A stretch of DNA of 36,151 bases from IMG/VR virus record IMGVR_UViG_3300030450_003083, positions 1 through 36,151 of that record. One strand, given 5' to 3'. A program made the position numbers and the translations under genes. The notes under the pieces were generated by a model, which saw only the letters and a list, made by a program, of their open reading frames with translations, made no database searches and was not told where the DNA came from. Source of the DNA: a virus. The stretch's first letter is position 1; each line of letters begins with the position of its first letter. This document shows positions 1,923 to 30,315 of the stretch, piece by piece.

Positions 1923-2237
1923 ATGGAAAAGACAAAAAAGTATTACACAGAGGATTTAATAGAGGGTGCGATAGAAGATTTACAAGAAGAAATAAAAAAA
2001 GACTACACAGAAAACTATGATGATTTAATTTCAGAGATAGCCGACAACAACATACCAATTTATACTTACGATTTACTACAATATGCGAGTAACAATTTTG
2101 ACCTAATTGAGCCGAATGATTTATGTTTAGATAGTGCAAGAGTTACCGAAACGATTACAGCAAATATTTATGAGGTTTTAACAGAAGCCTTATATGAATA
2201 CATAAACGAACAAAACGAGGGAGATAACAATGGCTAA
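1923..2237 (+). CDS. Acidic hypothetical protein, first gene of rightward operon
   Basis: A 104-residue acidic helical protein beginning MEKTKKYYTEDLIEGAIED. The ribosome binding site CGGAGGG is one of the strongest in the window, as expected for the first gene of an early operon. No domain is recognised. Its small size, acidity and early position suit a host-takeover or DNA-mimic-like protein, but this is only a guess. The last 8 bases overlap the next gene. Confidence 0.75.
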   Translation: MEKTKKYYTEDLIEGAIEDLQEEIKKDYTENYDDLISEIADNNIPIYTYDLLQYASNNFDLIEPNDLCLDSARVTETITANIYEVLTEALYEYINEQNEGDNNG

Positions 2238-2558: not shown

Positions 2559-2729
2559 ATGAGTAAAATAAACCTAAAAACAGCAACACTTGATGAAATC
2601 AGAGAAGAATGTGAAAAAGTATGTGGAACACCATTTGGACACAATATGATTGGAATAATGTGTAATGTGGTGGATGAAAGATTTGGGAAGGAGGAAGCAC
2701 AAGAGCTATTTGATGACTACCAAATATAA
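2559..2729 (+). CDS. Small hypothetical protein directly upstream of the ribozyme
   Basis: A 56-residue protein beginning MSKINLKTATLDEIREEC and ending QELFDDYQI, preceded by AGAAGGAG. It contains a small helical region and two cysteines (about residues 18 and 22). No family is recognised. Its TAA stop ends at 2729 and the first base of the hammerhead ribozyme is 2730, so the ribozyme forms the whole 3' boundary of this message. Confidence 0.65.
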   Translation: MSKINLKTATLDEIREECEKVCGTPFGHNMIGIMCNVVDERFGKEEAQELFDDYQI

Positions 2730-2786
2730 GTCTTACTGATGAGCTTTAAATAAGCGAAACAGCCTTGTAATGAGGCTGTCTAAGAC
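2730..2786 (+). ncRNA. Type I hammerhead self-cleaving ribozyme
   Basis: All core parts are present in order. Stem I is GTCTTA (2730-2735) pairing with TAAGAC (2781-2786), 6 bp. CTGATGA is at 2736-2742. Stem II is GCTT (2743-2746) with AAGC (2752-2755) around the loop TAAAT. GAAA is at 2756-2759. Stem III is CAGCCT (2760-2765) with AGGCTG (2773-2778) around a 7-base loop, then TC at 2779-2780. The last A of GAAA pairs with the U of UC, as in the hammerhead consensus. Cleavage is predicted after C2780. Stem I is the open stem, so this is type I. It fills the gap between two genes: a stop codon precedes it and AAAGGAG follows at once. Cleavage would leave a 19-base leader on the downstream message. 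Confidence 0.93.
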
Positions 2787-2799
2787 AAAGGAGAATGAA

Positions 2800-3036
2800 A
2801 TGGATAAACATGATATAGATAAATTAGTGAGATGGGCAGTTGATAGTGATTTAAGGAAATTTTCAGAAGACGCTTATGGAGTAACGGGAACAGCATTTGA
2901 TGTTGCAAGTGAAGGAGATTATTTAAGAGATAAATTTAAGCAAATGCAAAGCAATTTCATTATGTGGATAAGTGGATTAGATAGTAGAAATAAAGCAAGA
3001 TTATCAGAGAATATAAATAATCATAAAGGAGAATAA
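2800..3036 (+). CDS. Hypothetical protein downstream of the ribozyme
   Basis: A 78-residue protein starting MDKHDIDKLVRWAVDSD. The ATG at 2800 is chosen because AAAGGAG lies at the right distance. A longer in-frame start at 2770 falls inside loop III of the ribozyme and would force translation through the ribozyme, so it is unlikely. The protein is charged and probably helical, with a hydrophobic patch (NFIMWISGL). No family is recognised. Confidence 0.7.
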   Translation: MDKHDIDKLVRWAVDSDLRKFSEDAYGVTGTAFDVASEGDYLRDKFKQMQSNFIMWISGLDSRNKARLSENINNHKGE

Positions 3037-5094: not shown

Positions 5095-5101
5095 TAATAA
5101 C

Positions 5102-5173
5102 ATAGAGAGTCAGCGATTGGTCACGCACAAGGGAATATATCGCATAAAACAGGTAGAGCTGATGGCTCTCTAT
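5102..5173 (+). repeat. Large imperfect inverted repeat, candidate structured RNA upstream of HNH gene
   Basis: ATAGAGAG (5102-5109) pairs perfectly with CTCTCTAT (5166-5173), and TCAGC (5110-5114) with GCTGA (5158-5162), leaving only a 3-base bulge TGG. The 43-base loop contains ATCGC (5139-5143), which could instead pair with GCGAT (5113-5117). It lies wholly in the gap between two genes, ending 16 bases before the HNH gene start. It matches no riboswitch or ribozyme I can name. Confidence 0.55.
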
Positions 5174-5188
5174 AAAACAGGGAGAAAC

Positions 5189-5590
5189 ATGAAAGAAAAA
5201 CATGAGTATTATAAAGATTACGAAGACTACAATCAAAGAAGAAGGGAATTACATAGACTTGACCCAAGAATTAGATTAAGAGGAGGAGCTAGAGCTAGAG
5301 CTATTGAAAACGGACTAGAATTTAATTTAAAAACATACAAAGATTTACCAAAAATGCCCAAATATTGTCCTATTTTAAAAACTCCATTCAAAGTAGGAGC
5401 TTTAAAAGGGTCAAATGGAGGTGGAACAGACAATAGCCCAAGTTTAGATAGAATAGATAATAATAAAGGATATATAAAAGGCAATGTTCAAATTATATCA
5501 AGAAAAGCAAATCAAATGAAAAATAATGCAAATTTTGAAGAAATAGAAATGTTGTATAAATATATGAAAAAAATAAAGGAGAAAAAATAA
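5189..5590 (+). CDS. HNH-type endonuclease, possibly homing
   Basis: A 133-residue protein. The ATG at 5189 follows AGGGAG; a longer frame from 5117 would run through the inverted repeat and is rejected. The N-terminal half is basic and Arg-rich (YNQRRRELHRLDPRIRLRG). The C-terminal part has SLDRIDNNKGYIKGNVQIIS (residues about 85-104) then KANQMKNNA, the SLDRID...GY...GNV...AN...K pattern of phage HNH/His-Me finger endonucleases. A free-standing homing nuclease or a DNA-processing nuclease is likely. The structured leader upstream and the odd placement among unrelated small genes fit a mobile insertion. Confidence 0.8.
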   Translation: MKEKHEYYKDYEDYNQRRRELHRLDPRIRLRGGARARAIENGLEFNLKTYKDLPKMPKYCPILKTPFKVGALKGSNGGGTDNSPSLDRIDNNKGYIKGNVQIISRKANQMKNNANFEEIEMLYKYMKKIKEKK

Positions 5591-11293: not shown

Positions 11294-11745
11294 TAACAAT
11301 GAAAGATTTGATGGACAAACTTGGTCCATTATTAATAGAAACAAAGGAGGGATGGATGCCAGTAACAGAGGGGTACTGTAAAGGGTTTGACCTTGATTTA
11401 AAATTCGGAAAAATGGGAGAAGAATTTGTATCTGATGTATTAGAGGGAAACTCAAAAATAGAAGTAAAAACAGAAAGAGATATTTGGAAAACAACAGGCA
11501 ATATTGCTATAGAAATAAGGTGTGATGGTAAACCTTCAGGCTTATCAACCACTGAATCAACCGTATGGATACATTTATTGGCTTATAAAGGGGTCATAGA
11601 GGGCGGATTTTTATTTAAAGTAGAACAACTAAAGGAAAAGATAAAAAAACTCCATAAAAGCGGTGATATAAAAATGGTAATGGGAGGCGATAATAATGTA
11701 AGTCAGATGGTATTATTACCAATTGATAGTTTATTTAAAGAGTAA
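11290..11745 (+). CDS. PD-(D/E)XK-type nuclease-like protein
   Basis: A 151-residue protein with GKMGEEFVSDVL (Glu44/Glu45) and then KIEVKTE with the E-x-K pair Glu58/Lys60. This is the core of a PD-(D/E)XK nuclease, followed by a conserved-looking ERDIWKTTGNIAIEIRCDGK strand region and TVWIHLLAY. The catalytic acidic residue before E-x-K is likely in the LDLKFGKMGEE stretch. It may be a small resolvase/endonuclease or a phage version of a restriction-type fold. The start is ATG 11290 or 11299, both with weak ribosome binding sites. It is the last rightward gene; its 3' end overlaps the leftward giant gene by 15 bases. Confidence 0.7.
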   Translation: MITMKDLMDKLGPLLIETKEGWMPVTEGYCKGFDLDLKFGKMGEEFVSDVLEGNSKIEVKTERDIWKTTGNIAIEIRCDGKPSGLSTTESTVWIHLLAYKGVIEGGFLFKVEQLKEKIKKLHKSGDIKMVMGGDNNVSQMVLLPIDSLFKE

Positions 11746-14700
11746 ATCGCTAATTGAGATATTATAGTATTTTAAATCCTTTTTTAAATTTGCAGATTTT
11801 ATATATTCTTTAAGAGATTTCCCTAAAAGATTTACCCTATAGGCATATTGGCTATTTAATTTTTCTAGTCCTGATGAAAGTTTTTTATCTCCTCTGTTAA
11901 GCCATTGTAAAAACATATCTGCTTTTTTTACTTGATTTTTATAGGCTTTGGTGCCTTTTTTGGCTGTAACAAAAGCTTTGTTTGGGTTTAAATTAGTAAG
12001 GGATGTTTTCATTGATTTTACAGCATATTTTATGGCATCTGCTTCAGACTTTATAGGCGTCCCATCTTCTGTAATTTTAGTATAATAATAATCGTTCGCT
12101 TTAGCAAATAAACACATCATATACCATTTACCAAGAGAGTTTCCAGAAGAGTCTTTAGTAAATCCTGAATCAAAAATATTCTTAAATGCTATCATGTATT
12201 TACTATCTTGGAATGTTAAATCAACCTTACTTAGCCCTATAACCTCATCTCTATTGCCATACTCTTCGTGCATATCTTTATATAACTTTCTATATCTTTT
12301 AGCTTGACTTGGGTAAGAATTTGGAGATAATAATCCTTGTTTAAGCAGTTTATTCGTATTATTAATCAGTCCAGAAGAAGCTGTAAGAAAATCTTCCGCC
12401 CCTTGTCCCATAAATTTCTCACCTTTAGCAACAGACATTACTGAACCCCACATTACGCTTGCTGTTGAAAGTAAAGATGGATACATGCTTGTTCCTATAT
12501 AGTCTTTTCCTGCTCCAAATGGACTTAAAAAATCTGACATTATACCTAAAAACTCACCTTTCCATAATGCTGTTTTTATAACATTTGATTCTGTTGAATT
12601 TTCTTTTGGAGGAGATTGTCCTAAAACTTTATCATAAAAGGTTAATAGTGCTTCTCCTGAAAAATAAGCTCCAAGACCAAACATTATAGGCTGTAACATA
12701 GAACCATTTTGAATCGCAATTTTCATATTTCTTGTAGTATTAGCAGTTGCTGCATAAGCCATTCTTTTGTATAACAGCGCAGATTGAGCTACATCCCCAG
12801 CGGCCCAGTCTGGCATGAATATATTTATTGCAGCTCCTTGAGTATTTATATGAGCATAAGTGTTCATCTTTTGATAAAGTGCATCAAGAGCTCTTTTGTC
12901 TTTAAATGCAGCCTTTGCGTCATAGCCCTTCACACCTTCCATCCCATATTTTTTTAATAAAAGAATCTCTGCGTCACTTAACTTATAAAAAGATTTTAAT
13001 TTATTAACTGCAGCATTGTAACTTCTTGACCCTTCTTTGCTAAATTTTATTTTTCTAGCTAAATGCATTTGGTCTCTTCTGCTAGCTAATACGGAGACGT
13101 ATCTATTTAAATTTTCAGAAGGCTTCATAAGACCTAATTTAAAGAATTTATCTCCAACAGTATGTATGCCTCCAGCTAAACCTTTCATTTCAAAATGTCT
13201 CATACCTATTTCTGTAGCGCCAGTAGCTCTTACTAAAGCTCTATTGTCTTTATGTATTGCATGTACAAAACCCATAAAAACATCTCTAAACCTAAATGCT
13301 AATAAACTTTGAGAAGTTCCAATAAGAAAGTTTTTAAGACCAGATGTTGGAAATGATAATTGAAATTTAGCTGCTAAAGATGTTGTATGTTTTAATATCC
13401 TTATTCCATTAGGATAATCACTTGCTGCTTTATCTATTTTTAGGTGGTCTTTAATTCTTTTATGCGTCCAATCAGCTAACGCTGGGTCCTTCATTTTAAG
13501 TTCTCCTAATAATTGTTTTGCTCCTGGTCTGTTAAAACCTTTAAGTTTTACAAATTCAGGGAAAAATTCAACATTCGCAAGAAACTTTGATTGATTAATA
13601 GCATAATCTTTTGTTGTTAAATCAAATTTGGTTTCATATACATCTACCATTTTATTGTCAAGTTTAATTTTTTCAGGTAGCTTTACATGTCTTTCCTTTA
13701 AAAAGGACGGTGAATATTTACCTGGATTAAATTCAAATAATTCATATATTTCCCCATGTGCCATTGCAACTGCATCATCATGAAGTTCAGCCATCTTCTT
13801 TTCCATCTGTTCTTTTTTAGGATTCTTTATTTTCTTTTCATCAAAATATCTTTTAGCCATTTTTTTTGCAACACCTTCAACTTGGTCTTCAACAAGCTTT
13901 TCAAAGTGTCTACCATTAGGGTCATAATATTTTTTAAATTCTTTTGTCAGTCTTCTTTGAACATATACATTGTTTGTTTCATTAATCCAATTTATATTTT
14001 TATCATTTATAAATTTCTCAAACTCTGCTTTATTTAATACTTGTCTTAATGCTCCATCTTCACCTATAAAAGCTTCTTTATATTCTTTCATAAGTTTTCT
14101 ATGCTCTTTTAAAAATAATCCTTCTTTAGTATTTTTTGGTTGCCAGGTTTTTGTGTCTAGGGCTGCATTAATAAATCTTTTTTCAGCACGTGTAAGATAT
14201 CCTTTGTCAAGCCTTTCAAAGTATCTTTGCTTATCAAATAAATAAGCCATATCTTTAATTTTGTTCCATTTTGTATTTCCAGTTGTTGAAGACCAAAAAA
14301 CAGACCTCATTTCAGTTTCAAATCTTGTAAAATTTCCTATATATTTAAGTTCTGCAGATGTATGGCTGAATAATTTATCAGCTAAAGTTTTTAATCCAAC
14401 TGACTCTAAAACAGCAGTAACAGGCATTGCCCATTTTGCTTTTGATATTCTTTGAAATCTATCCGCAACTTTTTTATTAAGTCTTCCTTCAGCTACTTGT
14501 CTGTCAATCCAAGTTGTTGTTGAATTTTTAACATCATCCATTGTATTTACAATTTCAATAAAGTCTTTTAGTTGCTGATTAGTGGCTTTATAAATACTCC
14601 CATCTTTAACCTGTAAATTATTTAATAATGCTTTTCTGTCTGCTTCTGTAATGTTTTTAACAAGTCTTAATTTCTCAGCATCTTTAAAGTTCTTCCACCA

Positions 14701-17700
14701 CTTACTTTTTCCTGGAATAGCTCTCAAAACAGCAGGTTCCATTGAATTTATAGTTGCAACAAGTTGCTGCATTTCGGTTACGGGAGTATCCTTTTTTAGT
14801 TTAAAATTTTCACCCAATCCTGAAAGTTCAGCAACATGTCTTACGATTTCCTTGCCCTTAGAATCTGTAAATTCATTCTCTTTGAGTAAACTTTTAATTA
14901 CCTTTTTTGTATAACCATATGCTTCTTTTTCAGTCATCCCTTGCATTTTGTATTTAACTTCACCTTTAGCAAATTTAACGCCTTCAGTAGAAAATCCTTT
15001 TTGAACTCTTTTTGATAATACTCTTGCAATATCATTAAAGTTACCTACCCCAAATGCAACCTTAACTCTTGATACTAATTGTTTAACAAATTGATTTACT
15101 TTACCTAAAATTCCTTTTTGAAATTCCATACGAGATGCTTTTCCTCCAACAATATCAGCAAGAAACTCTTCAACATCTCTATCTAGGTTTTTCTTTTTCC
15201 AGTCTTTATACTCTTTAGTATTAATTGCAAGTTTCTCTCCACGTGAAATAAGTTTTTCTAGTTTTTTATTATTTGTTAATCTTGCAAATGCTTTTAATCT
15301 ATGTAGATTTTCATGAAAAAAATCAGAAGGCTGCCATACCCCTTTTTGAAGTTTTATAATTCCTTCTGCAAATTCACCAAAAACTCCTTCAGATAAACCT
15401 TCCCTTTTAAGCTGTTCTTTTGTGAGATTGTTCTTTTTCATCTGGGTTTTGATGAATTTATCTCTAGCTACTTTATCTGCTTTTTCTTTATATATTATTT
15501 CTGATAATTCTCTTGCAGCTTTTCTTTGTTTTGTTCCTTCAGTAAGATATTGTTTCGCTGAAATTTCAGTCTCTTTTACAGATTTTTCCCCTTTAAATTT
15601 TGTTTTAAATACTCTTCCGTATTCTCTTCCAGCCCCCATAGGAGAAGGAACACCTTCAATTCTTAATTCTACTTTTGTACCACTTTTATCAGATAACAAT
15701 TTAACAAATGCATTAAAACCTTTAGCTGATTCAAAAGGAAAAATTTTATCATTAGGTCCCTTTTTATTCTTTTTAGCATAATTATATAATTTTTGCGCTA
15801 ACTTTTTGTCTGTCAATACATCTATTTTTGTAGCCGCACCTTTTTGTTTTGTTCTTTCAAATCTAATTTCACCTGTTGGCTTTCCATTATCATCAAGAAG
15901 TATATCTTTAACTTTAAGCTTAGCTATTTCAGTAGGTCTTGTTTCTCCTAATCTAGCTGTTTTTATAGCAAGTTCTGCACCTTCCTTTGTGATTGTTTTA
16001 GCTTTTCCATCTTTTAGTATTCTTCCTTCAGGATTTTTCTTTGTAGGTTTACCACGTCTTTCGGCAATATATTCAATAACTTTATCTGCTTTAGTTTTAA
16101 CATAATTAATCCATTTATTAAAACCTTTTTCACCGCCCTGTATTGTTATTTTTTCAACACTTCTAACATTAAACTTTTTGACTTTTTCTACTATATTGCT
16201 ACCTACAACTTTATCTAATTCTCCAAATGTAAATAATTCTCCTATAGAATCTCTTATATAGTCAGCATCTCTCTTAAACTTTCTTATTTGGGCATCTGAA
16301 TATTTTTTAGATAATTGTAAATTTGATTTGTCATATACTTTTGCACCAACTCTATTTTGTATATACTCTTTTGCAAGATTTACAAGTTCATCAGGAGTAA
16401 GCTCATTTAAATTTCGTTTATATTTTTTCTCAACATATTTAGCAAGCTTATTTACTTCTTTTGCTCCTCTTGTATGCTTTCTTGTTTCAGGTAATCTATC
16501 TAATATATATGTTAATATATTTTTATTTACATCAGATATTCCTAATAATTCTTTGCTACCTTTAACACCTTTTTCTAATAGCTTTTCTTTTATTACAATA
16601 TTTTCAATTTGAGGATATGTTGCTCCACCTTTAAGTTTCCCTACAATAACATCTGCTTGAGATTCTGTTGTTAATTTCTTTTGTTCAAATATTGTTTTTT
16701 CTTGATTAAATATATCTTCAATTACTTGCTCTTTATTTTTAACTTTCTTTTTAGGAGTAAGCTCATATTCAACACCAAGCCTTTTAGCTTCTTCAATTAT
16801 TTTTTTATCTTTCCATTTTCGTGCCTCTTGTCTTGTTTTTCCACCAATTCTTGTTCTTAAAACAGGAGTATTTGGAGTTCCTGGACTTCCTCCATTCACA
16901 CCATCAGTAGATGTTGTCCAATTTCCCCCCATATAATCATTAGCCCATTCTCTATTTATCTCGGTAGCAGACTTAAACTGTTCTAATTGTTTCCTAAATG
17001 TTAAAAGTTCAGTTTTAGTTGGTTCAACACCAAATTGGTCTTTATAATGTTCTTTTAATTTACCCTCATCGGCTAAAGCTGCTTCAATTATTCCGTTTTT
17101 AACAAGTGCATATTCGTTTGCAAGTTCAAAATATCTTCCAAGTTCTACATATTCCTTACTTCCTTCAACTCTTGTTTTCTTTAAATATTCAGGGTCTTGA
17201 GTAAGTCTATTCATATTTTGAATAAAATCAATATCTTTTGTAATTGTTTCAATGTCTTTTTTTGTTTTAGATTCTTCTATTTTAAGCTTTACAGTTGCAT
17301 CTCTTATATCTTTTATAATTACATCACCTACATTTTCATTAACATTTTTTAAAACTTCAGAAACCTTTTTATTATTACTAGAACTAAGCTTAATCTCATT
17401 TGTAATTAATTTTTTAGCATCAATATAAGGGTCCTCAGTAAAGCCTCCAATAGCTCTCATTGCACCAACAATAAGAGTATTAGTACCTAGAGATGCCCAC
17501 CATTCTTTTGAGCCTAATTTAGGGGCTTCTTCATCTCCAAGCATAGAAGGAAGTGATGTAAATAAAGCAGCTTCTGTCCCAACCCTTGAAATAGGATGTG
17601 TTGCTGCTAATGTTAGTTTTTGGGCCATAGCGCCCTCTTTCATATAAGCTTGAGCATATCCATATAATGGACCCATAAGTCCTTGAGTTACACCACCTGC

Positions 17701-18501
17701 AATAGCAAACATTGGTAAAGCATGTAAAAATTCATCAGAAGCTACTTTTAAGGCATCTTTTATATTAACAACTCCATCTTCGTTTTCAGTCCTTTGTCTT
17801 GCTGTTTCATGAAACAATGCATGGGCAGCTGAAAAAGAACCACCGCCAATACCTAAACTAAGAGCTCCTTCAAGAACATTAATCCCAGCTGAACCCATTA
17901 ACGGATATTTTTTAGCAGCACTACCAAGTAACCCATTTTGTAAGAATTTTTTACCAGCTCCACGACCAAAGACCAATGACTTTCCTCCAGCAGAAGCTAA
18001 TTTTCCTAAGCTTCCTGTAGAGACCATTACACCAGCATCAAGAGGAGACAACATGCCAACAGCAAATTGTCCAGCCTGAGCATACCATGAAGGGTCATAT
18101 CCTGGGTTTTCTGTCCATTTATCTTTTCCATGAACTGTTTTATAAAGCATACCAGCCATTGAATCATTGTATGCTCTTTTAAAAAAGTCTGCACTAATTA
18201 AGCCTCCTAAAGCTCCCTCTGTTTGCCATTTATCAGGAACAATATCTCCAGTTAACCACCAGCTATCTACCCAGCTAGGGTCTGTTTGCTCTCCATCTAA
18301 TCCATTAGATTTTTCAACTTCTGGTGCTAATTGGCTTTGGTCTGTTTTTAGCGCTTCTTCGTAAGTAGGTAGGTTTAAATCGGGATGTCTTTCTTTAACT
18401 AATCCTATAACTTCTTCGTCAGATTTCCCTCTATATAAAGATGGATATCTTTTTTTCCAATAATCTGTAAATTCTGGTATGTTCGTAATCTGAGTAGACA
18501 T
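11731..18501 (-). CDS. Giant polyvalent internal virion protein with recombinase-like and HExxH metallopeptidase-like domains
   Basis: A 2256-residue protein. Residues about 125-330 are Gly-rich and hydrophobic, as in injected virion proteins. Residues about 835-990 resemble a tyrosine recombinase catalytic domain: TRPTEIAKLKVKDI (Arg855), a Lys in ERTKQK (885 or 887), VELR (Arg947) and GEKSVKETEISAKQYL (Tyr985). The usual HxxR histidine is replaced by Val, so catalysis is doubtful. FFHENLHRLKAF carries HENLH (1063-1067), with Glu1111/1112 in DVEEFLADIV as likely third ligand, a zinc metallopeptidase pattern. Residues about 1700-1950 (SGLKNFLIGTSQSLLAFRF, NTQGAAINIFMPDW) fit the LPD38-type domain of large polyvalent proteins. 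It is probably ejected with the DNA into the cell. There is no clear ribosome binding site; translation is likely coupled to the upstream gene, 5 bases away. Confidence 0.85.
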   Translation of the reverse strand: MSTQITNIPEFTDYWKKRYPSLYRGKSDEEVIGLVKERHPDLNLPTYEEALKTDQSQLAPEVEKSNGLDGEQTDPSWVDSWWLTGDIVPDKWQTEGALGGLISADFFKRAYNDSMAGMLYKTVHGKDKWTENPGYDPSWYAQAGQFAVGMLSPLDAGVMVSTGSLGKLASAGGKSLVFGRGAGKKFLQNGLLGSAAKKYPLMGSAGINVLEGALSLGIGGGSFSAAHALFHETARQRTENEDGVVNIKDALKVASDEFLHALPMFAIAGGVTQGLMGPLYGYAQAYMKEGAMAQKLTLAATHPISRVGTEAALFTSLPSMLGDEEAPKLGSKEWWASLGTNTLIVGAMRAIGGFTEDPYIDAKKLITNEIKLSSSNNKKVSEVLKNVNENVGDVIIKDIRDATVKLKIEESKTKKDIETITKDIDFIQNMNRLTQDPEYLKKTRVEGSKEYVELGRYFELANEYALVKNGIIEAALADEGKLKEHYKDQFGVEPTKTELLTFRKQLEQFKSATEINREWANDYMGGNWTTSTDGVNGGSPGTPNTPVLRTRIGGKTRQEARKWKDKKIIEEAKRLGVEYELTPKKKVKNKEQVIEDIFNQEKTIFEQKKLTTESQADVIVGKLKGGATYPQIENIVIKEKLLEKGVKGSKELLGISDVNKNILTYILDRLPETRKHTRGAKEVNKLAKYVEKKYKRNLNELTPDELVNLAKEYIQNRVGAKVYDKSNLQLSKKYSDAQIRKFKRDADYIRDSIGELFTFGELDKVVGSNIVEKVKKFNVRSVEKITIQGGEKGFNKWINYVKTKADKVIEYIAERRGKPTKKNPEGRILKDGKAKTITKEGAELAIKTARLGETRPTEIAKLKVKDILLDDNGKPTGEIRFERTKQKGAATKIDVLTDKKLAQKLYNYAKKNKKGPNDKIFPFESAKGFNAFVKLLSDKSGTKVELRIEGVPSPMGAGREYGRVFKTKFKGEKSVKETEISAKQYLTEGTKQRKAARELSEIIYKEKADKVARDKFIKTQMKKNNLTKEQLKREGLSEGVFGEFAEGIIKLQKGVWQPSDFFHENLHRLKAFARLTNNKKLEKLISRGEKLAINTKEYKDWKKKNLDRDVEEFLADIVGGKASRMEFQKGILGKVNQFVKQLVSRVKVAFGVGNFNDIARVLSKRVQKGFSTEGVKFAKGEVKYKMQGMTEKEAYGYTKKVIKSLLKENEFTDSKGKEIVRHVAELSGLGENFKLKKDTPVTEMQQLVATINSMEPAVLRAIPGKSKWWKNFKDAEKLRLVKNITEADRKALLNNLQVKDGSIYKATNQQLKDFIEIVNTMDDVKNSTTTWIDRQVAEGRLNKKVADRFQRISKAKWAMPVTAVLESVGLKTLADKLFSHTSAELKYIGNFTRFETEMRSVFWSSTTGNTKWNKIKDMAYLFDKQRYFERLDKGYLTRAEKRFINAALDTKTWQPKNTKEGLFLKEHRKLMKEYKEAFIGEDGALRQVLNKAEFEKFINDKNINWINETNNVYVQRRLTKEFKKYYDPNGRHFEKLVEDQVEGVAKKMAKRYFDEKKIKNPKKEQMEKKMAELHDDAVAMAHGEIYELFEFNPGKYSPSFLKERHVKLPEKIKLDNKMVDVYETKFDLTTKDYAINQSKFLANVEFFPEFVKLKGFNRPGAKQLLGELKMKDPALADWTHKRIKDHLKIDKAASDYPNGIRILKHTTSLAAKFQLSFPTSGLKNFLIGTSQSLLAFRFRDVFMGFVHAIHKDNRALVRATGATEIGMRHFEMKGLAGGIHTVGDKFFKLGLMKPSENLNRYVSVLASRRDQMHLARKIKFSKEGSRSYNAAVNKLKSFYKLSDAEILLLKKYGMEGVKGYDAKAAFKDKRALDALYQKMNTYAHINTQGAAINIFMPDWAAGDVAQSALLYKRMAYAATANTTRNMKIAIQNGSMLQPIMFGLGAYFSGEALLTFYDKVLGQSPPKENSTESNVIKTALWKGEFLGIMSDFLSPFGAGKDYIGTSMYPSLLSTASVMWGSVMSVAKGEKFMGQGAEDFLTASSGLINNTNKLLKQGLLSPNSYPSQAKRYRKLYKDMHEEYGNRDEVIGLSKVDLTFQDSKYMIAFKNIFDSGFTKDSSGNSLGKWYMMCLFAKANDYYYTKITEDGTPIKSEADAIKYAVKSMKTSLTNLNPNKAFVTAKKGTKAYKNQVKKADMFLQWLNRGDKKLSSGLEKLNSQYAYRVNLLGKSLKEYIKSANLKKDLKYYNISISDLLFK

Positions 18502-21817: not shown

Positions 21818-23641
21818 CTATTCTTCACTAACAATAGTTGCAGGCAATGCTATTACTTTAAAGGTTATTGGTTGAGTATTTAACGAACCACCTCTATCAA
21901 CCCCATGATAAAGATATGAACTTGCTACTGAAGCATCTCCTGCAATCCAATATTGATATGATGTTCCTGCTGTTAATCCTTGTACTACGAAAGGTAAATA
22001 TAAAGAAACATAATCTGTTTCATCAGGTTTTACACCTAAACTATCATAAGTCTGTATTGCAGCTACCTCATTATATGTAGCATTATCAGATAATGAAAAC
22101 ATTACTTCCCTTGAAGAACCATATAGCATAGCAGAAAAAATAATTTCCACTTTACCACTTGGAGGAGCAACAAAAGACACATTTAGTTTATTCCCTTGAG
22201 CAGTTTCCAATACTGTCATAGTTGTATCTATTGCTATGGAATCATTTCCTATACTTCCTGTTGCATTTCTAAAAACACTATAACCAAGTATCATTCCTGC
22301 ATAAGCACTATTTGCAGAACTAAATTCAGTAACTGTTGCCCCGCTTACTGTTCCTGCTACCCAATTAGTTGCAGCTAAACTTATTTTATCATTAGCTTCA
22401 TCTAAAGATAACATTTTATCTGTGCCTACATAAATATCTAATACATCATCTGATGACTCACTTATATAAGTATGAGTACCGCCATCAAAATACAATCCGT
22501 CAGTTGCCTTTATAATTGTTTTTTGACTAGCAGGGTCTAATGTTAAATCACCATTAGGAGTGAATGTTAAATGCCCTGCTGTACCATCAGCATCTGTAGT
22601 AGTTAAGCTTGTTACACCATTGCCACCAACTGTGATTCTGAAAAAATTTGTACCATCATAAAAAAAATTATATCTATTGTTTGCTAAATCAAAACCTATT
22701 TTTGTAGCAAGTCCATCCTCAAATGTTACATTTCCTCCATCAGCATTTAACTCAATATTTCCATCTACATCTAAAGTTAAATTTGCAGCACTTGCATTAG
22801 CATCAACAGTTTCTAAGGTTAAATCTCCATTTGTTCCTACAGTGAACTTTGCATAATCAACTGCATTATCATTATCATATAAATACATAATACCCGTTGA
22901 AGGAGTGAGCTTTAAATCTCCATCAGGTTGTAATATTAAATGTCCAGTAGTTCCATCATCATCAAAAGTTGTTATCTTAGTCTCTCCATTTAAAGAAACT
23001 GAAATAGCTGCATAATTATCTGAATCATAACTTAATTTTAATAATTCTGTTTGTGCTGACGTTTGCCAATTATCATCATAATCTGAATTATATTTAATCT
23101 CAAGAGTTGAGCCATCGTATAATAATGTAGGTTCAGAATCCATTATCCCAATTTCTTGCCCAGTTGTTAATAATTGATTTTCAGGAGTACTACTTATGCT
23201 ATCATGAGAATCATTTTCAGAATAATACCAAGTTCCACCATTAGCTTCACAAGATTGCTTACTAGAGTATTGTCCTAATGAACAATATGCTGCCTTGTAG
23301 TTGACCTTCACTAAATCAAGGTCATTTAATATATTATCGCCAGTTCTATATTTAATGCTATTATCTTTTAATACAACAAACTTATCTGTATTAATACCAG
23401 CATTTTCTATTCTTTTTAATGTTAATTTGTCGGATTGTAAATCTTTTATATAAGCAGTATCGATTTTACTTAATGGCTGCATAGTTGTTTGTGCATACCA
23501 TAAGCCTGCTGCTTTAACACAAAAAAACACGCCCTTTCCACGCATTTTTACAATAACAGTATCGCCATCCTGCCCATATGTTTTTGTGGGGAAATACCCT
23601 ATTATTTTAGGTTTTTCTGCTTTTCTATATTGAGCTGCCAT
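21818..23641 (-). CDS. Tail fibre/spike-like protein with beta repeats
   Basis: A 607-residue protein. The N-terminal part is globular with a small Cys/Trp region (YCSLGQYSSKQSCEANGGTW, about residues 119-138). The middle has repeated units such as DDDGTTGHLILQPDGDLKLT and DADGTAGHLTFTPNGDLTLD, typical of fibre shafts built as trimeric beta structures. The C-terminal 150 residues form a beta-sandwich-like domain (PPSGKVEIIFSAMLYGSS, GTSYQYWIAGD) that probably contacts the host. Its ATG overlaps the stop of the giant tail gene by one base. It is likely a receptor-binding protein; the start is clear but the receptor is unknown. Confidence 0.8.
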   Translation of the reverse strand: MAAQYRKAEKPKIIGYFPTKTYGQDGDTVIVKMRGKGVFFCVKAAGLWYAQTTMQPLSKIDTAYIKDLQSDKLTLKRIENAGINTDKFVVLKDNSIKYRTGDNILNDLDLVKVNYKAAYCSLGQYSSKQSCEANGGTWYYSENDSHDSISSTPENQLLTTGQEIGIMDSEPTLLYDGSTLEIKYNSDYDDNWQTSAQTELLKLSYDSDNYAAISVSLNGETKITTFDDDGTTGHLILQPDGDLKLTPSTGIMYLYDNDNAVDYAKFTVGTNGDLTLETVDANASAANLTLDVDGNIELNADGGNVTFEDGLATKIGFDLANNRYNFFYDGTNFFRITVGGNGVTSLTTTDADGTAGHLTFTPNGDLTLDPASQKTIIKATDGLYFDGGTHTYISESSDDVLDIYVGTDKMLSLDEANDKISLAATNWVAGTVSGATVTEFSSANSAYAGMILGYSVFRNATGSIGNDSIAIDTTMTVLETAQGNKLNVSFVAPPSGKVEIIFSAMLYGSSREVMFSLSDNATYNEVAAIQTYDSLGVKPDETDYVSLYLPFVVQGLTAGTSYQYWIAGDASVASSYLYHGVDRGGSLNTQPITFKVIALPATIVSEE

Positions 23642-26600
23642 TACTTAACGTTTTTAGTTCTATAAACAATAGTATAATCATTAATTTCAAAATCATCAGC
23701 AATATTTGTTCCTCCTCCTTCAAATTTAATAGCAAAAGAATATATATTATTAATTGAACTTGAAGGTTTTAATTCTGCTGTAATCCATCCTGTACTAGAA
23801 GCACCATCACTTAATCCATTTGTTGTTGAATAATTTGTACTATCATTTGAAAATTCTGTAAATGTTTCTGACCCATTTGTTGCATAGTATACTTTTATAT
23901 TTGAATGTGCAGCAGAACCATCATTAGTTGATTTGAAAGTTACATATACTTTATATATTTTCTTTCTTACTCCTGGTGAACCAAAATCAAAATCTTTTGT
24001 TCTTAAAATAAAGTTATCACCAAGACCATCACTATTGCTTGATGTAGTTGAATCATCTGTCCATTTATATATAGCATTAATGCCATCAAAAGTATCGCTT
24101 GGAGCATCAACAGCATAATAAACAATATCTCCATCTTTATTATTAGTAAAGTTTGAAAGATATCCTTGGCTTACTATACTTGCAGTTTCAGGTGTTGCTG
24201 TTAATTTCTTAGATAAGAATGTCCATCCTTGAGATTGAAAATCATATTGAAATCCCTCACAGACAGATGTACCAACTAATTCACTTGTATCTCCTCCTGG
24301 GGTAGCAGGGCCAGTATTTCTTGCTATGATAAGTTTTTTTGTTGATTTTACATATCCTATTGCAGGAATATCAGTTCCTACTATTGTCCAAAAATTGTTT
24401 GTTGAACCAAGAGGATTTGATTGAAAACTTTCTGTTCCAACTTTATTATCAATAAGATTACTTACTTTCTTACCATCATATAAAAAACATCCACTTGCAT
24501 TGACCCATGCAATACCATAAGGAGTTTCTGTTATCTGACATTGTTTATTAACCCCTACATTAGAGAATGTATCTTCTAAATATTCATAATCTCCTGATAC
24601 ATTAATTGCAAATACCTTCCTTTTCTTAAATTGCAATATTCTATCTTTATAATATGCAAGACCAGTTATTTCATCACCATCATGTATTGCTACATCAATA
24701 TAATTACTTGCTGGAAATATATTATATTTACCCACAGGAGTTTTTAACATTCTATCACCATATGTTTTGCCATTTTGTTTAATATTTCCTACATATAATC
24801 TATTGTTAACATGTATCCCTACTTTATAATTACAAGTTAATGTTGGTAAAATTTCAGCATCTTTTTGTTTAACTAATGTCTCAGATTCATAGCTATCAAC
24901 TTCGTTGAATGTAGTTAAATCACTAGAATGTATTGTCCAACGATAAGCGCTGCTTTCACTTCCTTCACTATAATGATAAGGGGTTCCTGAAGTGGATGAT
25001 TTTGCTTCAAGGGTTTCTGTGCTAATAGATGCTTGAAGATACCATGTGTCCTCAGAAGTATCTTTCATATATATTTTAACCTCTTTAATAAGGGTATTAT
25101 TTATTAAATCTTGTCCTACTAAAATATCCATAACAGGCAATTGTCCAGTTAATATTAAATCTACATCTCCTATAAAACCCTCAGATACCTCTAAAGGAGA
25201 TTCTTCACCAAATAAATTTACAGTAGAAGTTGCTAGAGAAAATACTCTTAAAGCCCATCCGATTCCTTCTACAGTTTCCACTTGTCCAGTTTCATCGTTT
25301 ACCTCTTGTTCGGCTGAGTCTATAAAATCTAAATTTACATGTATTGAGTTTAGGTCAGTATTACTAGCTTCGGCATCAACTTCAAATTCTAATGGATAAA
25401 ATTTAGCATTAAAACTACTACCACTTGGATTATAAGCATCAAGTAAATATCCAAATTGTTGCTCTCTACCAGGCATAGCTGCACCTGAATAGCCTCCATT
25501 TGCCCTTGGATTTACACCACAAAAAGCTAAAAAATCATCTGTATTAGTAGTACTTGGATTAGTAATCTCTAGTTTTATAACTAAATTAGTAAGATTAGTT
25601 ACTCCAGAACCTTCGGGAATATTCCACGTATACCATGCCCATTGCTTATGATACCATCCAAATTTAACTCCATTACTCCACTGCATGTCACCACCACCCC
25701 ATTCTTCATCATAACTTAACGTAACCTCATCTACCGTATTGCCATCTCCATGTTGAGCAAAAGTTCGACTATTGTGAGGGCGAGTAATCCATGTACATTC
25801 AGGAATTGAAACTAAAGTGCCATTTGCATTATCCGTAAATAATGTTTTTATAGAATTAACATCGGATAAATTAGCATATGTTTTATAAAGCCTAGCTCTA
25901 ACTCTAGGCATATATCTATTTTTTAAGGGATATTCTGCTGTAACATTACCATTAACACTATTCCTTAAAATATTAACTCCTGTCATAAATGCATATATTC
26001 TAACTTTAACTTGCTTTAACTCTAAAGGATTATTTATTGCGTCTTCATATCCACCAGCTATTAATTCTGAAGTCATAGTTGCTTTTCCTGAGCCTAAATC
26101 ATTCCCTGATATAGGAAGATATACAGGATTATTTACAGTGTGCCATGTTCCTGCGCCATATTTGTCATTTGTACCATTACCTTCACTCTGACCGTATGAA
26201 TATTGACTAGAACCTCCTGTTCCTGCATTTTTATTATGTTTAGAAGCTGAACCGCCAGGGAATCGAAGTTTTGAATCGTTCCCACTAAAACTACTGCTAT
26301 CTATTTCACTATTAAGATTAGATAAATTTTCTGTTGAAAAAACAGTCCTTCCTGAATCACTTATTTCGTTCCAATGATAGCCTTGTCCTGTTCCAGGATA
26401 TCCCATTGGCCAAACTGATTTTACTGGAATCATTTGAGCTGTAATATAAAGGCCATCAACATAATCAGTGGTAGCAGCTTGCCAATAATCAAAATATTTA
26501 TAATGCCATGTTTTCCAACCAGAACCATAATAAGTACTAGGAGTAACAGTATCTGAAGCATAATATTGAAGTCCTTGAACTTGGTCATGGTATTTAGGGA

Positions 26601-29600
26601 CCATTGCATGGTCTTCCCATAAATCTTTATGTATATCCGCAAGAGGAATTGTTTTTTCCCCATGACTAACTGTTTCTGAGCCTAAATTACTTGTTGTACA
26701 TGCATCAATAAACTTAATAACATTATTTGTAGTTTTAAAACCCTTTTCATGAGTATGTCCAGATGTTCTATCAATATAAAAATGATAAAATAATTCACTG
26801 GTATTATTAAGATTAGCATCTGATATTTGTAACATTCCATTTACATAAATATAAAAAGGGTCAGCGTTTGTATATCCAAAACTTAAAAAATCAGTATCCC
26901 AATGTCCATATTCCTCATAGTAAGCATATATTTTAGAATTAGAAGAGGTATTGTCATTTAAAAGTAAAATATTTTTATCTAAACTTTCTCCTCCAGCTAT
27001 ATCGGCAATTAAATTTATTTTAGAAAATCCTACAGACTGGTTTTGAGAATATCTGGAATGGTGCGTTGTAGCTGTAGCGCTTCCAGTAGTATATCCAAAT
27101 TTTCCTCCATATAACCTAATAACCCAATCTGATTTTTCCTTATATTCAGAGGGTACTGTAAAATTAAGTTTATATATTATTGGACCAGTTATATAACTAT
27201 ATCCAGAATTTCCTTTTCTATAATCTGGATTGTCCCAATCAAATCCATCATCATATCTTACTGGTAGATGTCCTGTATTTTGTTGATTAACCATAGTTAC
27301 TAAATCAGGAAAAGCTTTTTTAACACTAACAGCACTAATACCAACTGTATTACCAGAGTAAATGTCAGCTGGAGCAAATTTAAATCTTACTCTAACAGAA
27401 TCTGTTTCTGTTTCTAATGGTGGAACGAAAAATTTTACATATTCAAAAACAAATCTATTTCCTCCTACAGTCGTTGTCTCTTGATTTACATGGCTATAAT
27501 AACATTGAGTTCTATTCATTCTTTGTGATTCAGGTTCAGCTTCGTTCCATCGGTTTAAATAACCATTACCCCCAGTATCTGTTACTTGCCAACTATTAGT
27601 CAAAGAAACTTCTCTTTCTTTGTCCTTTATATCATATTTAAGTTGACCCATAGTGTTGTCATGAACTGTTGTTGCAAATTTAAAATATAAATGATAATGA
27701 CAATTTCCGTCTAATTCTATATCCTGATAAAGATAGTCTGTACCATCTAATTGTTGACCTGTAAGTAATAATAAAACATTGCCTCCATCTGGGCCTCCAT
27801 CTGATTTTTCTATACCTGGATAAGATTCAAGAGTTTTAGATGTCGCTGTTCCACTTAACATATCATTTGTTTCCATTAAAGTATTTTTTAATAAAATCGG
27901 GATTATTTTACCTCCTTTAATTTTCCAACCATCTAATGTGTGTAGTTCAGCATTATCATCTAAATCTACTTCAATCCTCTCCATAGCTATATGTGTAGTA
28001 TCCGTCACTTCTGTACATAAACCAACAGGTAAGCCTGTTGATGTTGTGAAAATATTATTTAAAGAATTTGCATCTGTTGCATTTTCAGTTTGGACTACAA
28101 CTGTTCTACCGCTAGTACTAGCAGATACAGCCCCATTAACATGCATACTTGTATCTGTTATATCAGTAAAATCTCCATTATCAATCTTATTTGTGAATGG
28201 AGATAATTCATTACCTTCAACTGGCTCATCACTTTCTACCCATAGATTATCATCCATTAATACACCTGCTTTAGTTCCATCTCCAGCAGTTGGAGAATAT
28301 ATTAATGCACCTGGCAATATATCTGCATTTGCTCCATTTGCAACAAACATTTGCCATGGGTTTAATATAAGCATCTCAAATTCTAATGTATATGATGTTC
28401 CTGGATATAGACGTTGCGCAGGTATTTCTAAATAACCTAAATCTCCAGATGTGTTAGCAGTAGTAACTTCAACAGAAGATGATAAAAACCTAGAAGCACC
28501 AGGAGTAGGCAACTTATGAACCCTTGCAACATCTGTATTTAAGGCTTTATTTGAAACTAATCTTGAGCCATATGCATCATTTATTCCATTAATATTCCAA
28601 TTAGAAGCACCATCTGATTTAATATTATGTATAACATATCCTGAAGAAGAATTTGGAATTGACGTAAATGTACCAGCTCCATCAGTAGAAGGGTCACCTG
28701 CGTCTGATTTTATGTAAAAATAATTTGTTTCAACCCAAAGAACTTCAAATGTTTTACTATATTCTGCATCTACTTCTGATATTGTTACATATTCGCCTAC
28801 ATTTAAACTATGACCAGTAGATGCACATTTTGCTATTTGATTACTGCCTGAATCATGTTCTCCTCCTCCCCAATATTGTTGAAATGGTTGAAAAATATCA
28901 ATCGAAATTGTTGGATTATATAGAGTAGTAGGTGTAGGTAACATTCGGATTTGCCTATCAATATTTGCTCCAGATGTTTCATCTGTAATTTTAACTATTG
29001 TGAGCTCTGTTCCATCACTTGCACTTCCATCGCTAACTGCTGCAGCTGTAAAACTTGCAGCATAAGTATCGCTAATATCATCAATATCATTAATGACTGA
29101 AACAATTGATGCTGCAACTTGCGCAGCTGTTTTATTTTTTTTATTAATCTGTGCATATCCATGAGGACCATAAGTTTCAAAATTAGTAACTACTGAATTA
29201 TTAACTGCTTCTGCATCAGATAATGAGCTAATCATTCTAGTAGAAACGGTAGAGTTTTTAAACCGTATAAGAATAAATTGTGAAACACCAGCAGAAGTTT
29301 GTGTTTCTAAAAAAAGGTGGTCTTGTTCAAGAGGTTCACTGCCATCTGTTCCAAAATTATAAACTCTCAATAAAGCAACAGCTTTTATATCTATACCTGT
29401 TCCATCAATTGAAGCAATACTTCCTGACGAATCAGAAAGACCAAATGCTCCTCCAAGTGTTGCTATTTTTGTAGTTCCATCATAATCAGTTATTTTCCTT
29501 GTCTGTCCTTTACCTGCCCCATCAATAACACTTATAAGCATATTATTATAATAATCGTCAGTCTCATGACTTGTTGCTGAAATCTTTGTAGGTGAAGTTG

Positions 29601-30315
29601 CTAATTTCATTGCAAGATTTGTTTGTTTAACACTTATATCATCAATATTAAAAGTGCAAGTACCTGAAGATACAGCACTAATTTCAAACCTAGTAATAGT
29701 TGAATAAGCTTTAAAATAAATAGTATGAGTACCATTTGTCTTTGGAAGAGTTATATCTTCATCGGCAAAATAACCACTACCACCTTTAAGTTTTAAAGAA
29801 GTTAAAGTTCCTCCTGGTGTTCCGCTTATAGTAAAAACAAGTACATGCATTGAAGTTACTGTTGGGGTATGACTAAAGCTTGTTTGATAAATTGTACCAG
29901 CTCCAGATGAATGTGTATAAGAAGCATCTGTTGAATCTATTGCAAAATCACCAGTTCTTGTCCAGTTAGACGAAAAATCTCCAGTATTATTTAATACCTC
30001 AGTAGCATCTGCTTCATTATAACAATTAGTAGTTCCTTCTTCATGTGAAATACTAAAATTTCCTGAGTCTACTAAAGTGTTTGGCATAAAATCATACCCA
30101 AACGAAAACAAACCACCCCCAGGAATAAAATTTGTATTTGTGTGAGGATGGTTTATTATATGCTTTGTTCCAGCCCCTGTATATCTAATAACTCCATATT
30201 TATCTAATGAAGCATTCCAATTCTGAGCAAATTGATTTTCTTGAATATCTCTTGCATCAGAATAGCAATTAAGTCCACCAGTAAAATCAGTTATATTGAG
30301 CTGCTGTTTGGGCAT
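23641..30315 (-). CDS. Giant tail protein, nozzle/tubular-like ends with large carbohydrate-binding-like insert
   Basis: A 2224-residue protein. The N-terminus (LNITDFTGGLNCYSDARDIQ) and the C-terminal region after about residue 1730 (GDRMLKTPVGKYNIFP, DGDEITGLAYYKDRILQFKK, TPYGIAWVNASGCFLYDGKK) resemble the beta-propeller-type tail nozzle/tubular proteins of short-tailed phages. Between them lie some 1600 residues of beta-sandwich-like modules with the look of carbohydrate-binding or jelly-roll domains (for example SSGTCTFNIDDISVKQ near residue 220). It probably sits at the tail tip, and the insert may bind or sort surface glycans. It starts at an ATG sharing one base with the preceding stop. 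Confidence 0.8.
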   Translation of the reverse strand: MPKQQLNITDFTGGLNCYSDARDIQENQFAQNWNASLDKYGVIRYTGAGTKHIINHPHTNTNFIPGGGLFSFGYDFMPNTLVDSGNFSISHEEGTTNCYNEADATEVLNNTGDFSSNWTRTGDFAIDSTDASYTHSSGAGTIYQTSFSHTPTVTSMHVLVFTISGTPGGTLTSLKLKGGSGYFADEDITLPKTNGTHTIYFKAYSTITRFEISAVSSGTCTFNIDDISVKQTNLAMKLATSPTKISATSHETDDYYNNMLISVIDGAGKGQTRKITDYDGTTKIATLGGAFGLSDSSGSIASIDGTGIDIKAVALLRVYNFGTDGSEPLEQDHLFLETQTSAGVSQFILIRFKNSTVSTRMISSLSDAEAVNNSVVTNFETYGPHGYAQINKKNKTAAQVAASIVSVINDIDDISDTYAASFTAAAVSDGSASDGTELTIVKITDETSGANIDRQIRMLPTPTTLYNPTISIDIFQPFQQYWGGGEHDSGSNQIAKCASTGHSLNVGEYVTISEVDAEYSKTFEVLWVETNYFYIKSDAGDPSTDGAGTFTSIPNSSSGYVIHNIKSDGASNWNINGINDAYGSRLVSNKALNTDVARVHKLPTPGASRFLSSSVEVTTANTSGDLGYLEIPAQRLYPGTSYTLEFEMLILNPWQMFVANGANADILPGALIYSPTAGDGTKAGVLMDDNLWVESDEPVEGNELSPFTNKIDNGDFTDITDTSMHVNGAVSASTSGRTVVVQTENATDANSLNNIFTTSTGLPVGLCTEVTDTTHIAMERIEVDLDDNAELHTLDGWKIKGGKIIPILLKNTLMETNDMLSGTATSKTLESYPGIEKSDGGPDGGNVLLLLTGQQLDGTDYLYQDIELDGNCHYHLYFKFATTVHDNTMGQLKYDIKDKEREVSLTNSWQVTDTGGNGYLNRWNEAEPESQRMNRTQCYYSHVNQETTTVGGNRFVFEYVKFFVPPLETETDSVRVRFKFAPADIYSGNTVGISAVSVKKAFPDLVTMVNQQNTGHLPVRYDDGFDWDNPDYRKGNSGYSYITGPIIYKLNFTVPSEYKEKSDWVIRLYGGKFGYTTGSATATTHHSRYSQNQSVGFSKINLIADIAGGESLDKNILLLNDNTSSNSKIYAYYEEYGHWDTDFLSFGYTNADPFYIYVNGMLQISDANLNNTSELFYHFYIDRTSGHTHEKGFKTTNNVIKFIDACTTSNLGSETVSHGEKTIPLADIHKDLWEDHAMVPKYHDQVQGLQYYASDTVTPSTYYGSGWKTWHYKYFDYWQAATTDYVDGLYITAQMIPVKSVWPMGYPGTGQGYHWNEISDSGRTVFSTENLSNLNSEIDSSSFSGNDSKLRFPGGSASKHNKNAGTGGSSQYSYGQSEGNGTNDKYGAGTWHTVNNPVYLPISGNDLGSGKATMTSELIAGGYEDAINNPLELKQVKVRIYAFMTGVNILRNSVNGNVTAEYPLKNRYMPRVRARLYKTYANLSDVNSIKTLFTDNANGTLVSIPECTWITRPHNSRTFAQHGDGNTVDEVTLSYDEEWGGGDMQWSNGVKFGWYHKQWAWYTWNIPEGSGVTNLTNLVIKLEITNPSTTNTDDFLAFCGVNPRANGGYSGAAMPGREQQFGYLLDAYNPSGSSFNAKFYPLEFEVDAEASNTDLNSIHVNLDFIDSAEQEVNDETGQVETVEGIGWALRVFSLATSTVNLFGEESPLEVSEGFIGDVDLILTGQLPVMDILVGQDLINNTLIKEVKIYMKDTSEDTWYLQASISTETLEAKSSTSGTPYHYSEGSESSAYRWTIHSSDLTTFNEVDSYESETLVKQKDAEILPTLTCNYKVGIHVNNRLYVGNIKQNGKTYGDRMLKTPVGKYNIFPASNYIDVAIHDGDEITGLAYYKDRILQFKKRKVFAINVSGDYEYLEDTFSNVGVNKQCQITETPYGIAWVNASGCFLYDGKKVSNLIDNKVGTESFQSNPLGSTNNFWTIVGTDIPAIGYVKSTKKLIIARNTGPATPGGDTSELVGTSVCEGFQYDFQSQGWTFLSKKLTATPETASIVSQGYLSNFTNNKDGDIVYYAVDAPSDTFDGINAIYKWTDDSTTSSNSDGLGDNFILRTKDFDFGSPGVRKKIYKVYVTFKSTNDGSAAHSNIKVYYATNGSETFTEFSNDSTNYSTTNGLSDGASSTGWITAELKPSSSINNIYSFAIKFEGGGTNIADDFEINDYTIVYRTKNVK

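Follow-up and report, generated by a model that had tools for sequence, protein, structure and literature searches.

The window, by which we mean the whole 36,151-nucleotide stretch of viral DNA analysed here, carries a plus-strand block of genes, and the gap between two of them, genes C and D, is filled by a short sequence (positions 2730 to 2786) that reads directly as a complete type I hammerhead ribozyme with an intact core. The genes and the parts of the element are the following:

1923-2237, plus strand: gene A, which opens the putative operon and encodes an Ocr-like antirestriction protein mimicking DNA (Pfam PF08684, E = 2.7e-6, 28.2 bits against a cut-off of 25).
2559-2729, plus strand: gene C, 56 aa, last gene 5' of the ribozyme, its stop abutting stem I (sequence, open reading frames).
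2729, plus strand: A2.7, which flanks stem I on its 5' side and is the last base of the gene C TAA, a predicted tertiary-contact position (A in 118/118 phage hammerheads among the matches listed, with this position unconstrained).
2730-2735, plus strand: stem I 5' strand GUCUUA, 6 bp with 2781-2786 (3/6 pairs compensatory in the lineage).
2736-2742, plus strand: catalytic core CUGAUGA (sequence, R1 alignment).
2743-2755, plus strand: stem II GCUU/AAGC with pentaloop UAAAU (2/4 pairs compensatory in the lineage; first loop II base U in 243/243 copies listed).
2756-2758, plus strand: core GAA, after which A15.1 pairs with U16.1 (sequence, R1 alignment).
2759-2779, plus strand: stem III, 8 bp, with loop GUAAU (fold; 3/7 counted pairs compensatory in the lineage).
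2780, plus strand: C17, with predicted cleavage at 2780/2781 (hammerhead numbering; H17 is C in 106/126 and A in 20/126 copies listed).
2781-2786, plus strand: stem I 3' strand UAAGAC, with which the downstream mRNA is predicted to begin, bearing a 5'-OH (sequence).
2787, plus strand: A1.7, which flanks stem I on its 3' side and is predicted to contact a U of loop II (A in 240/243 distinct main-class copies listed; coupling with loop class).
2787-2793, plus strand: AAAGGAG, ribosome-binding site of gene D, abutting stem I (sequence).
2800-3036, plus strand: gene D, 78 aa, first gene 3' of the ribozyme (relatives in viral contigs; no Pfam match).

The element thus occupies the entire space between the gene C stop codon (TAA, 2727-2729) and the AAAGGAG of gene D (2787-2793), and a predicted cut after C17 would leave a leader of 19 nt before the gene D ATG at 2800. 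The initial annotation of this DNA had given the same extent, with the stop ending at 2729 and AAAGGAG from 2787, the same cleavage position (2780/2781), a 19-base leader and an intercistronic location, and in all of these it agreed with the sequence. It had also placed the element in an early operon, which the match of gene A to Pfam ocr (E = 2.7e-6) renders plausible. This family is that of the T7 early antirestriction DNA mimic. The plus-strand block further encodes an exonuclease, a single-strand annealing protein, a DnaB helicase and a Holliday-junction resolvase, and with the Ocr-like gene A this gene content makes an early or replication block a plausible assignment by analogy. A promoter scan of the window gave matches no more frequent than in shuffled sequence, and therefore no promoter or transcript boundary was assigned. 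No relative of the gene D protein was found among named phages, and no tRNA was found in the window.

Elsewhere in the window, four tandem 13-bp repeats (TATACTATAGAGA, positions 610-661), possibly an operator or origin, lie in a non-coding stretch before divergent gene blocks, and a terminator-like hairpin with a GC-rich stem followed by a T-run is present on the minus strand at 864-906. The minus strand also encodes two giant proteins of 2256 and 2224 aa (11731-18501 and 23641-30315) with no Pfam match. A second structured intergenic RNA (5095-5180, plus strand; fold z = -4.46) precedes the open reading frame ending at 5590; it is 90-93% conserved over about 87 nt in four loci (L009, L401, L016 and L010), its consensus resembles a three-way junction with two compensatory pairs, and it matched no Rfam family.

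The hammerhead sequence is GTCTTA-CTGATGA-GCTT-TAAAT-AAGC-GAA-ACAGCCTT-GTAAT-GAGGCTGT-C-TAAGAC as DNA and GUCUUA CUGAUGA GCUU UAAAU AAGC GAA ACAGCCUU GUAAU GAGGCUGU C UAAGAC as RNA. Both the sequence and the alignment to a covariance model of phage hammerheads (R1, described below) contained the hammerhead core, CUGANGA ... GAAA ... UH with A15.1-U16.1. Stems I, II and III comprise 6, 4 and 8 bp, with stem I open-ended and stems II and III closed by loops, as indicated by the predicted fold and by covariation in both lineage and class. The 8 bp of stem III are seven Watson-Crick pairs and one closing U-G, a count that includes A15.1-U16.1; the lengths of 6 and 4 bp initially given for stems I and II were correct, and the 6 bp given for stem III has to be extended. 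The minimum free energy structure of 2725-2795 was the hammerhead itself (-18.3 kcal/mol, z = -2.75). The core pattern, expected 0.03 times by chance in the window, is present once.

At gathering cut-offs, Rfam 15 gave no match anywhere in the window, so that the proposed check against the Rfam hammerhead models was negative at this level and yielded only a sub-threshold score. The type I hammerhead model RF00163 scored the element at 25.6 bits (E = 3e-4 in 301 bases), below its gathering cut-off of 34 bits, which is a curator's threshold and not a biochemical definition; across the whole 36.6-kb IMG/VR virus record, of which the window makes up almost everything, the element was its only match. 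The RAGATH-1 model RF03152 likewise remained below threshold, with 31.3 against 56.3 bits. We therefore turn to R1, a covariance model built from 59 phage hammerheads with the window's own lineage left out. R1 recovered the element with 62.9 bits and E = 4e-15 as its sole match in the window; an insignificant covariance search had been named beforehand as refuting the ribozyme, and together with the complete core and the fold this significant match confirms the type I identity. The Rfam gathering cut-offs also reported no ribozyme in the loci of lineage relatives or in the corresponding regions of cultured phages carrying one, and in 20 other carrier loci the only ribozymes they returned were a twister-P3 and a type II hammerhead, neither belonging to the subclass described below. 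As other members of the subclass fall below Rfam reporting as well, the miss by RF00163 reflects the reach of the model along with the sequence. The silence of the curated cut-offs is what a chance resemblance to a hammerhead would lead one to expect; the E value from an independent model and the covariation in relatives refute this reading at the sequence level, and we regard its probability as practically negligible.

To place the element within its lineage, relatives were retrieved via the DnaB-like helicase, gene D and gene A. The window has no close relative among named phages, and its own element used as a nucleotide query against them gave only an 18-nt chance match. The ribozyme was present in L003/L004 (identical over 57 nt), L010, L014, L153, L389 (the record of L012), L407 and L412, and it was missing from most other lineage loci. 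It occurred in 7/20 loci carrying a gene A relative, indicating that the element is dispensable. Five distinct versions from the lineage were compared; each of them kept all 17 pairs, and 8/17 had changed on both sides, giving a covariation score of 0.482, compared with 0.221 for shuffled and 0.025-0.094 for slid controls. Where gene order was read, the ribozyme followed gene A by one to three genes. The gene on its 3' side varied: gene D in the window and in L003/L004, Z14 in L010, L153 and L409/L389, Y14 in L014, and other genes in L407 and L412; L016 has genes A, Z14 and D side by side with no ribozyme. Since the downstream neighbour differs among relatives, the ribozyme is not bound to the C-D gene pair. 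Within the lineage it is conserved by structure, tied to no single pair of genes and dispensable.

To describe the wider class, viral contigs were scanned for the core with a U-A-N-N-U loop and unconstrained flanks (scan 1; at least 120 stretches). Among the matches listed, 121/127 distinct ones had a fully paired stem II and 119/127 were complete type I hammerheads, whereas the same pattern in cellular genomes gave a paired stem II in 10/117 and a hammerhead in only 5/117. Stem I was 6 bp in 125/126 of the copies listed, and the bases immediately 5' and 3' of it were A in 118/118 matches listed in each case. In a second scan the 5' A was fixed and the loop left free; in the copies listed from both scans, loop II followed U-N-A-N-U (U1 in 243/243, A3 in 221/243, U5 in 225/243), and A1.7 was found in 240/243 distinct main-class copies. 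Altogether more than 240 distinct copies of the subclass were recovered, most of which lie between genes of the same orientation. Judged by its sequence, the window element is a member of this compact phage subclass with a 6-bp stem I, A1.7 and A2.7, a 4-bp stem II and a 5-nt U-initial loop. In the 59 class sequences, 14/16 pairs had changed on both sides (score 0.860 vs 0.166 shuffled); these sequences had passed a structure filter, which removed little given the high unfiltered match rates (119/127 complete). Two further loci, L191 and L203, hold type I hammerheads in which stem II bears an extra hairpin (28-nt loop) and the A/A flanks are kept.

The joint conservation of core, A flanks and loop U bears on another reading, namely that the element is an ordinary RNA structure, a 3' stabiliser or terminator, whose catalysis is irrelevant. 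Stem III is indeed a stable hairpin, and a terminator-like match lies over it on the minus strand; however, the transcribed strand has no T-run, and a plain hairpin would need none of the features that are conserved together. We therefore consider this reading very improbable.

The flanking bases and the loop also hint indirectly at a tertiary contact. In described hammerheads a U seven nucleotides after the cleavage site pairs trans-Hoogsteen with an A of loop II (PMC9217987). Among extra copies in fetched loci that matched neither scan pattern exactly, seven had a loop II that was not U-initial and ended in A (GUAA twice, AUAA twice, AGAA, GGAA and AGAGUAA), and all of them carried U1.7, which suggests that in this minority U1.7 and the A-ending loop form a coupled contact. 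Among the same extra copies, a U-initial loop II mostly went with A/A flanks. From this coupling, in which the minority numbers are small, the main phage class looks like the known U1.7-A contact with the two bases exchanged. The L212 copies (5-bp stem I, A/T flanks) and L260 fit the pattern poorly.

The position of the copies relative to genes was assessed with open reading frames of at least 50 aa, requiring a stop on the same strand at -20 to +21 nt relative to the 5' end, together with an ATG that follows the cleavage site by 10-45 nt. This arrangement was found for 91/120 copies listed, compared with 2.5% of random places and 2/120 on the other strand. In the copies listed, the upstream stops fell at offset 0-1 (n = 31), at a TAA ending stem I (n = 21), at the TGA of CUGA (n = 13) or at a TAA in loop II (n = 21), and always 5' of the cleavage site, so that the upstream message would keep its stop. 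A Shine-Dalgarno-like site with a start within 60 nt past the cut was present for 135/257 copies vs 12% of random places. In the window as in the class, the ribozyme lies on the sense strand between co-directional phage genes.

As termination on the upstream gene necessarily brings the ribosome over stem I, these stop positions raise the variant of a translation-gated switch, in which the terminating ribosome covers stem I and the core and cutting takes place chiefly while the upstream gene is translated slowly or not at all. The gene C stop abutting stem I, and the class stops at or inside the ribozyme and always before the cut, would suit such a switch. Yet the conserved core and loop provide stops in two frames, so that any upstream frame ends there, and compact packing accounts for the stop positions without gating. 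Gating is compatible with cleavage between the genes, which we favour, and is worth considering; we hold it to be unlikely.

Two or more copies were found in 64/194 other loci, in all 64 on one strand, with a median spacing of 587 nt, and copies within multi-copy loci differed in sequence in 162/163 pairs. Twister-P3 and a type II hammerhead were seen alongside type I copies (L075:174-241 and L105:1587-1663), indicating mixed ribozyme sets per phage. Several ribozymes per operon are common, not obligatory, and the window element is a single copy in its 36.6-kb record. The genes next to class copies are diverse and mostly of unknown function. Antirestriction genes recur in places: gene A of the window is Ocr-like, the gene upstream of the L002 ribozyme encodes ArdC, and in phage Jormungand ArdA genes lie about 1.3 kb upstream of the ribozyme. 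A general antirestriction link was considered and dropped; ArdC matched only 3/125 immediate upstream and 2/107 downstream neighbours of class copies, and there is thus no strong general enrichment.

Such a distribution, patchy in close relatives with different neighbours each time, with several diverged copies per phage and diverse neighbour genes, could also arise if an active hammerhead spread through gene gaps neutrally or by selection on the element itself, conferring no benefit through mRNA processing. The compensatory changes that keep the fold in the lineage speak against this, as do the strict sense orientation and tight stop-to-start fit, which selection for cutting of mRNA would be expected to yield, and the surroundings of the window element showed neither a mobility gene nor a target duplication. 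Spread of this kind is in our view quite unlikely.

With consensus subclass members as queries, complete ribozymes were also found in six named, cultured phages and confirmed by R1 (E 4e-13 to 1e-11): HTVC019P, HTVC131P, HTVC142P and Jormungand (Pelagibacter, Autographiviridae), OLIVR1 (Agrobacterium, Schitoviridae) and elemoB (Flavobacterium).

The E value of 4e-15, the covariation, the placement, the one-strand arrays and the phage precedent make processing of mRNA the best explanation. We consider it likely that the window element is an active type I hammerhead that cuts a putative polycistronic message of the plus strand in the gap separating gene C from gene D; the cleavage itself, the 5'-OH end and the effect on expression we infer from sequence. 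The RNA would cleave itself during transcription at 2780/2781. The upstream piece, with genes A to C, would retain its stop codon and end behind the hairpins of stems II and III, and the downstream piece would begin with 5'-OH-UAAGACAAAGGAG, its 19-nt A-rich leader containing the gene D ribosome-binding site. The likely benefit would be that the two gene blocks decay and are translated independently of each other, the first three genes and the rest thereby possibly meeting separate fates. A 5'-OH is expected to resist RNase E decay stimulated by a 5'-monophosphate, and the new end would accordingly be a poor substrate for that pathway. Cleavage would also strip folded RNA abutting the gene D ribosome-binding site. 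Unmasking of this site through base accessibility was rejected: predicted accessibility was about the same before and after cleavage (0.84 vs 0.80), and any unmasking would therefore have to be steric.

An 8-bp alternative pairing is predicted between 2733-2740 (stem I and core strand) and 2823-2830 (start of gene D). In a thermodynamic fold that omits the tertiary contact, the probability of stem I was 0.71 with RNA to 2815, 0.16 to 2830 and about 0 beyond; low values are common in the class (median 0.13 at -80/+50). It is possible that this pairing competes with the ribozyme if cleavage is slow.

Across hundreds of phage sequences, the class probably consists of cutters between co-transcribed genes that divide long messages into shorter ones. 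The fuller proposal is a distinct, largely unannotated subclass with A1.7/A2.7 docking on a U-initial pentaloop, acting as a standard intercistronic mRNA cutter across unrelated phages, with upstream reading frames ending at the ribozyme or within it and the next start about 20-40 nt past the cut; this we put forward tentatively, at slightly less than even confidence. The purpose of phage hammerheads has been open since 2010-2011, and De la Pena et al. (2017; PMC6155905) still list the role of prokaryotic hammerheads as such. The window offers a clean single-copy example with relatives lacking the ribozyme, and the six cultured phages are systems in which 5'-OH ends and ribozyme-dead variants can be examined. 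The covariance signature finds copies below the standard database threshold, and the placement rule is statistical; if it holds, many phage operon annotations should include ribozyme-defined mRNA ends. In the openly available literature searched, we found no description of the subclass signature, the apparent contact swap or the placement rule.

Among known RNAs, RF00163 shares with the window element the common core, three stems, an open-ended stem I and an NUH cleavage site; it differs in that stem I of the window is just a 6-bp helix flanked by A and loop II is UNANU, where the RF00163 consensus is CAAAUA. RAGATH-1 (RF03152) gave a full-length sub-threshold alignment with a similar stem I (UCUUA/UAAGA), but the upstream helix of that model has no supported counterpart in the window. 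Full-length hammerheads with U1.7 (PMC9217987) have a contact that would be expected at the same place in the window element, 7 nt past the cleavage site; the window has the reverse arrangement, A1.7 and a U-initial loop II. The HDV-like theta ribozymes of gut phages (PMC10879173) are also self-cleaving RNAs of phage genomes with a proposed role in RNA processing; they form a different class linked to tRNA-based recoding, and the window holds no tRNA. A parallel comes from Perreault et al. (2011; PMC3088659), who proposed that clustered hammerheads of phages and prophages break up long transcripts into mRNAs spanning an operon or a gene; three arrays were shown to cleave in vitro, and one triple array did so in E. 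coli. The phage context is shared: those ribozymes lie between genes, often several per operon and near antirestriction genes, including arrays flanking ardA in Agrobacterium, and the window has a single copy near an Ocr-like gene. The initial description of an intercistronic processing role as poorly described was hence only partly fair. Such processing by phage hammerheads was already proposed in 2011, and the window element adds a member to the known phage hammerheads.
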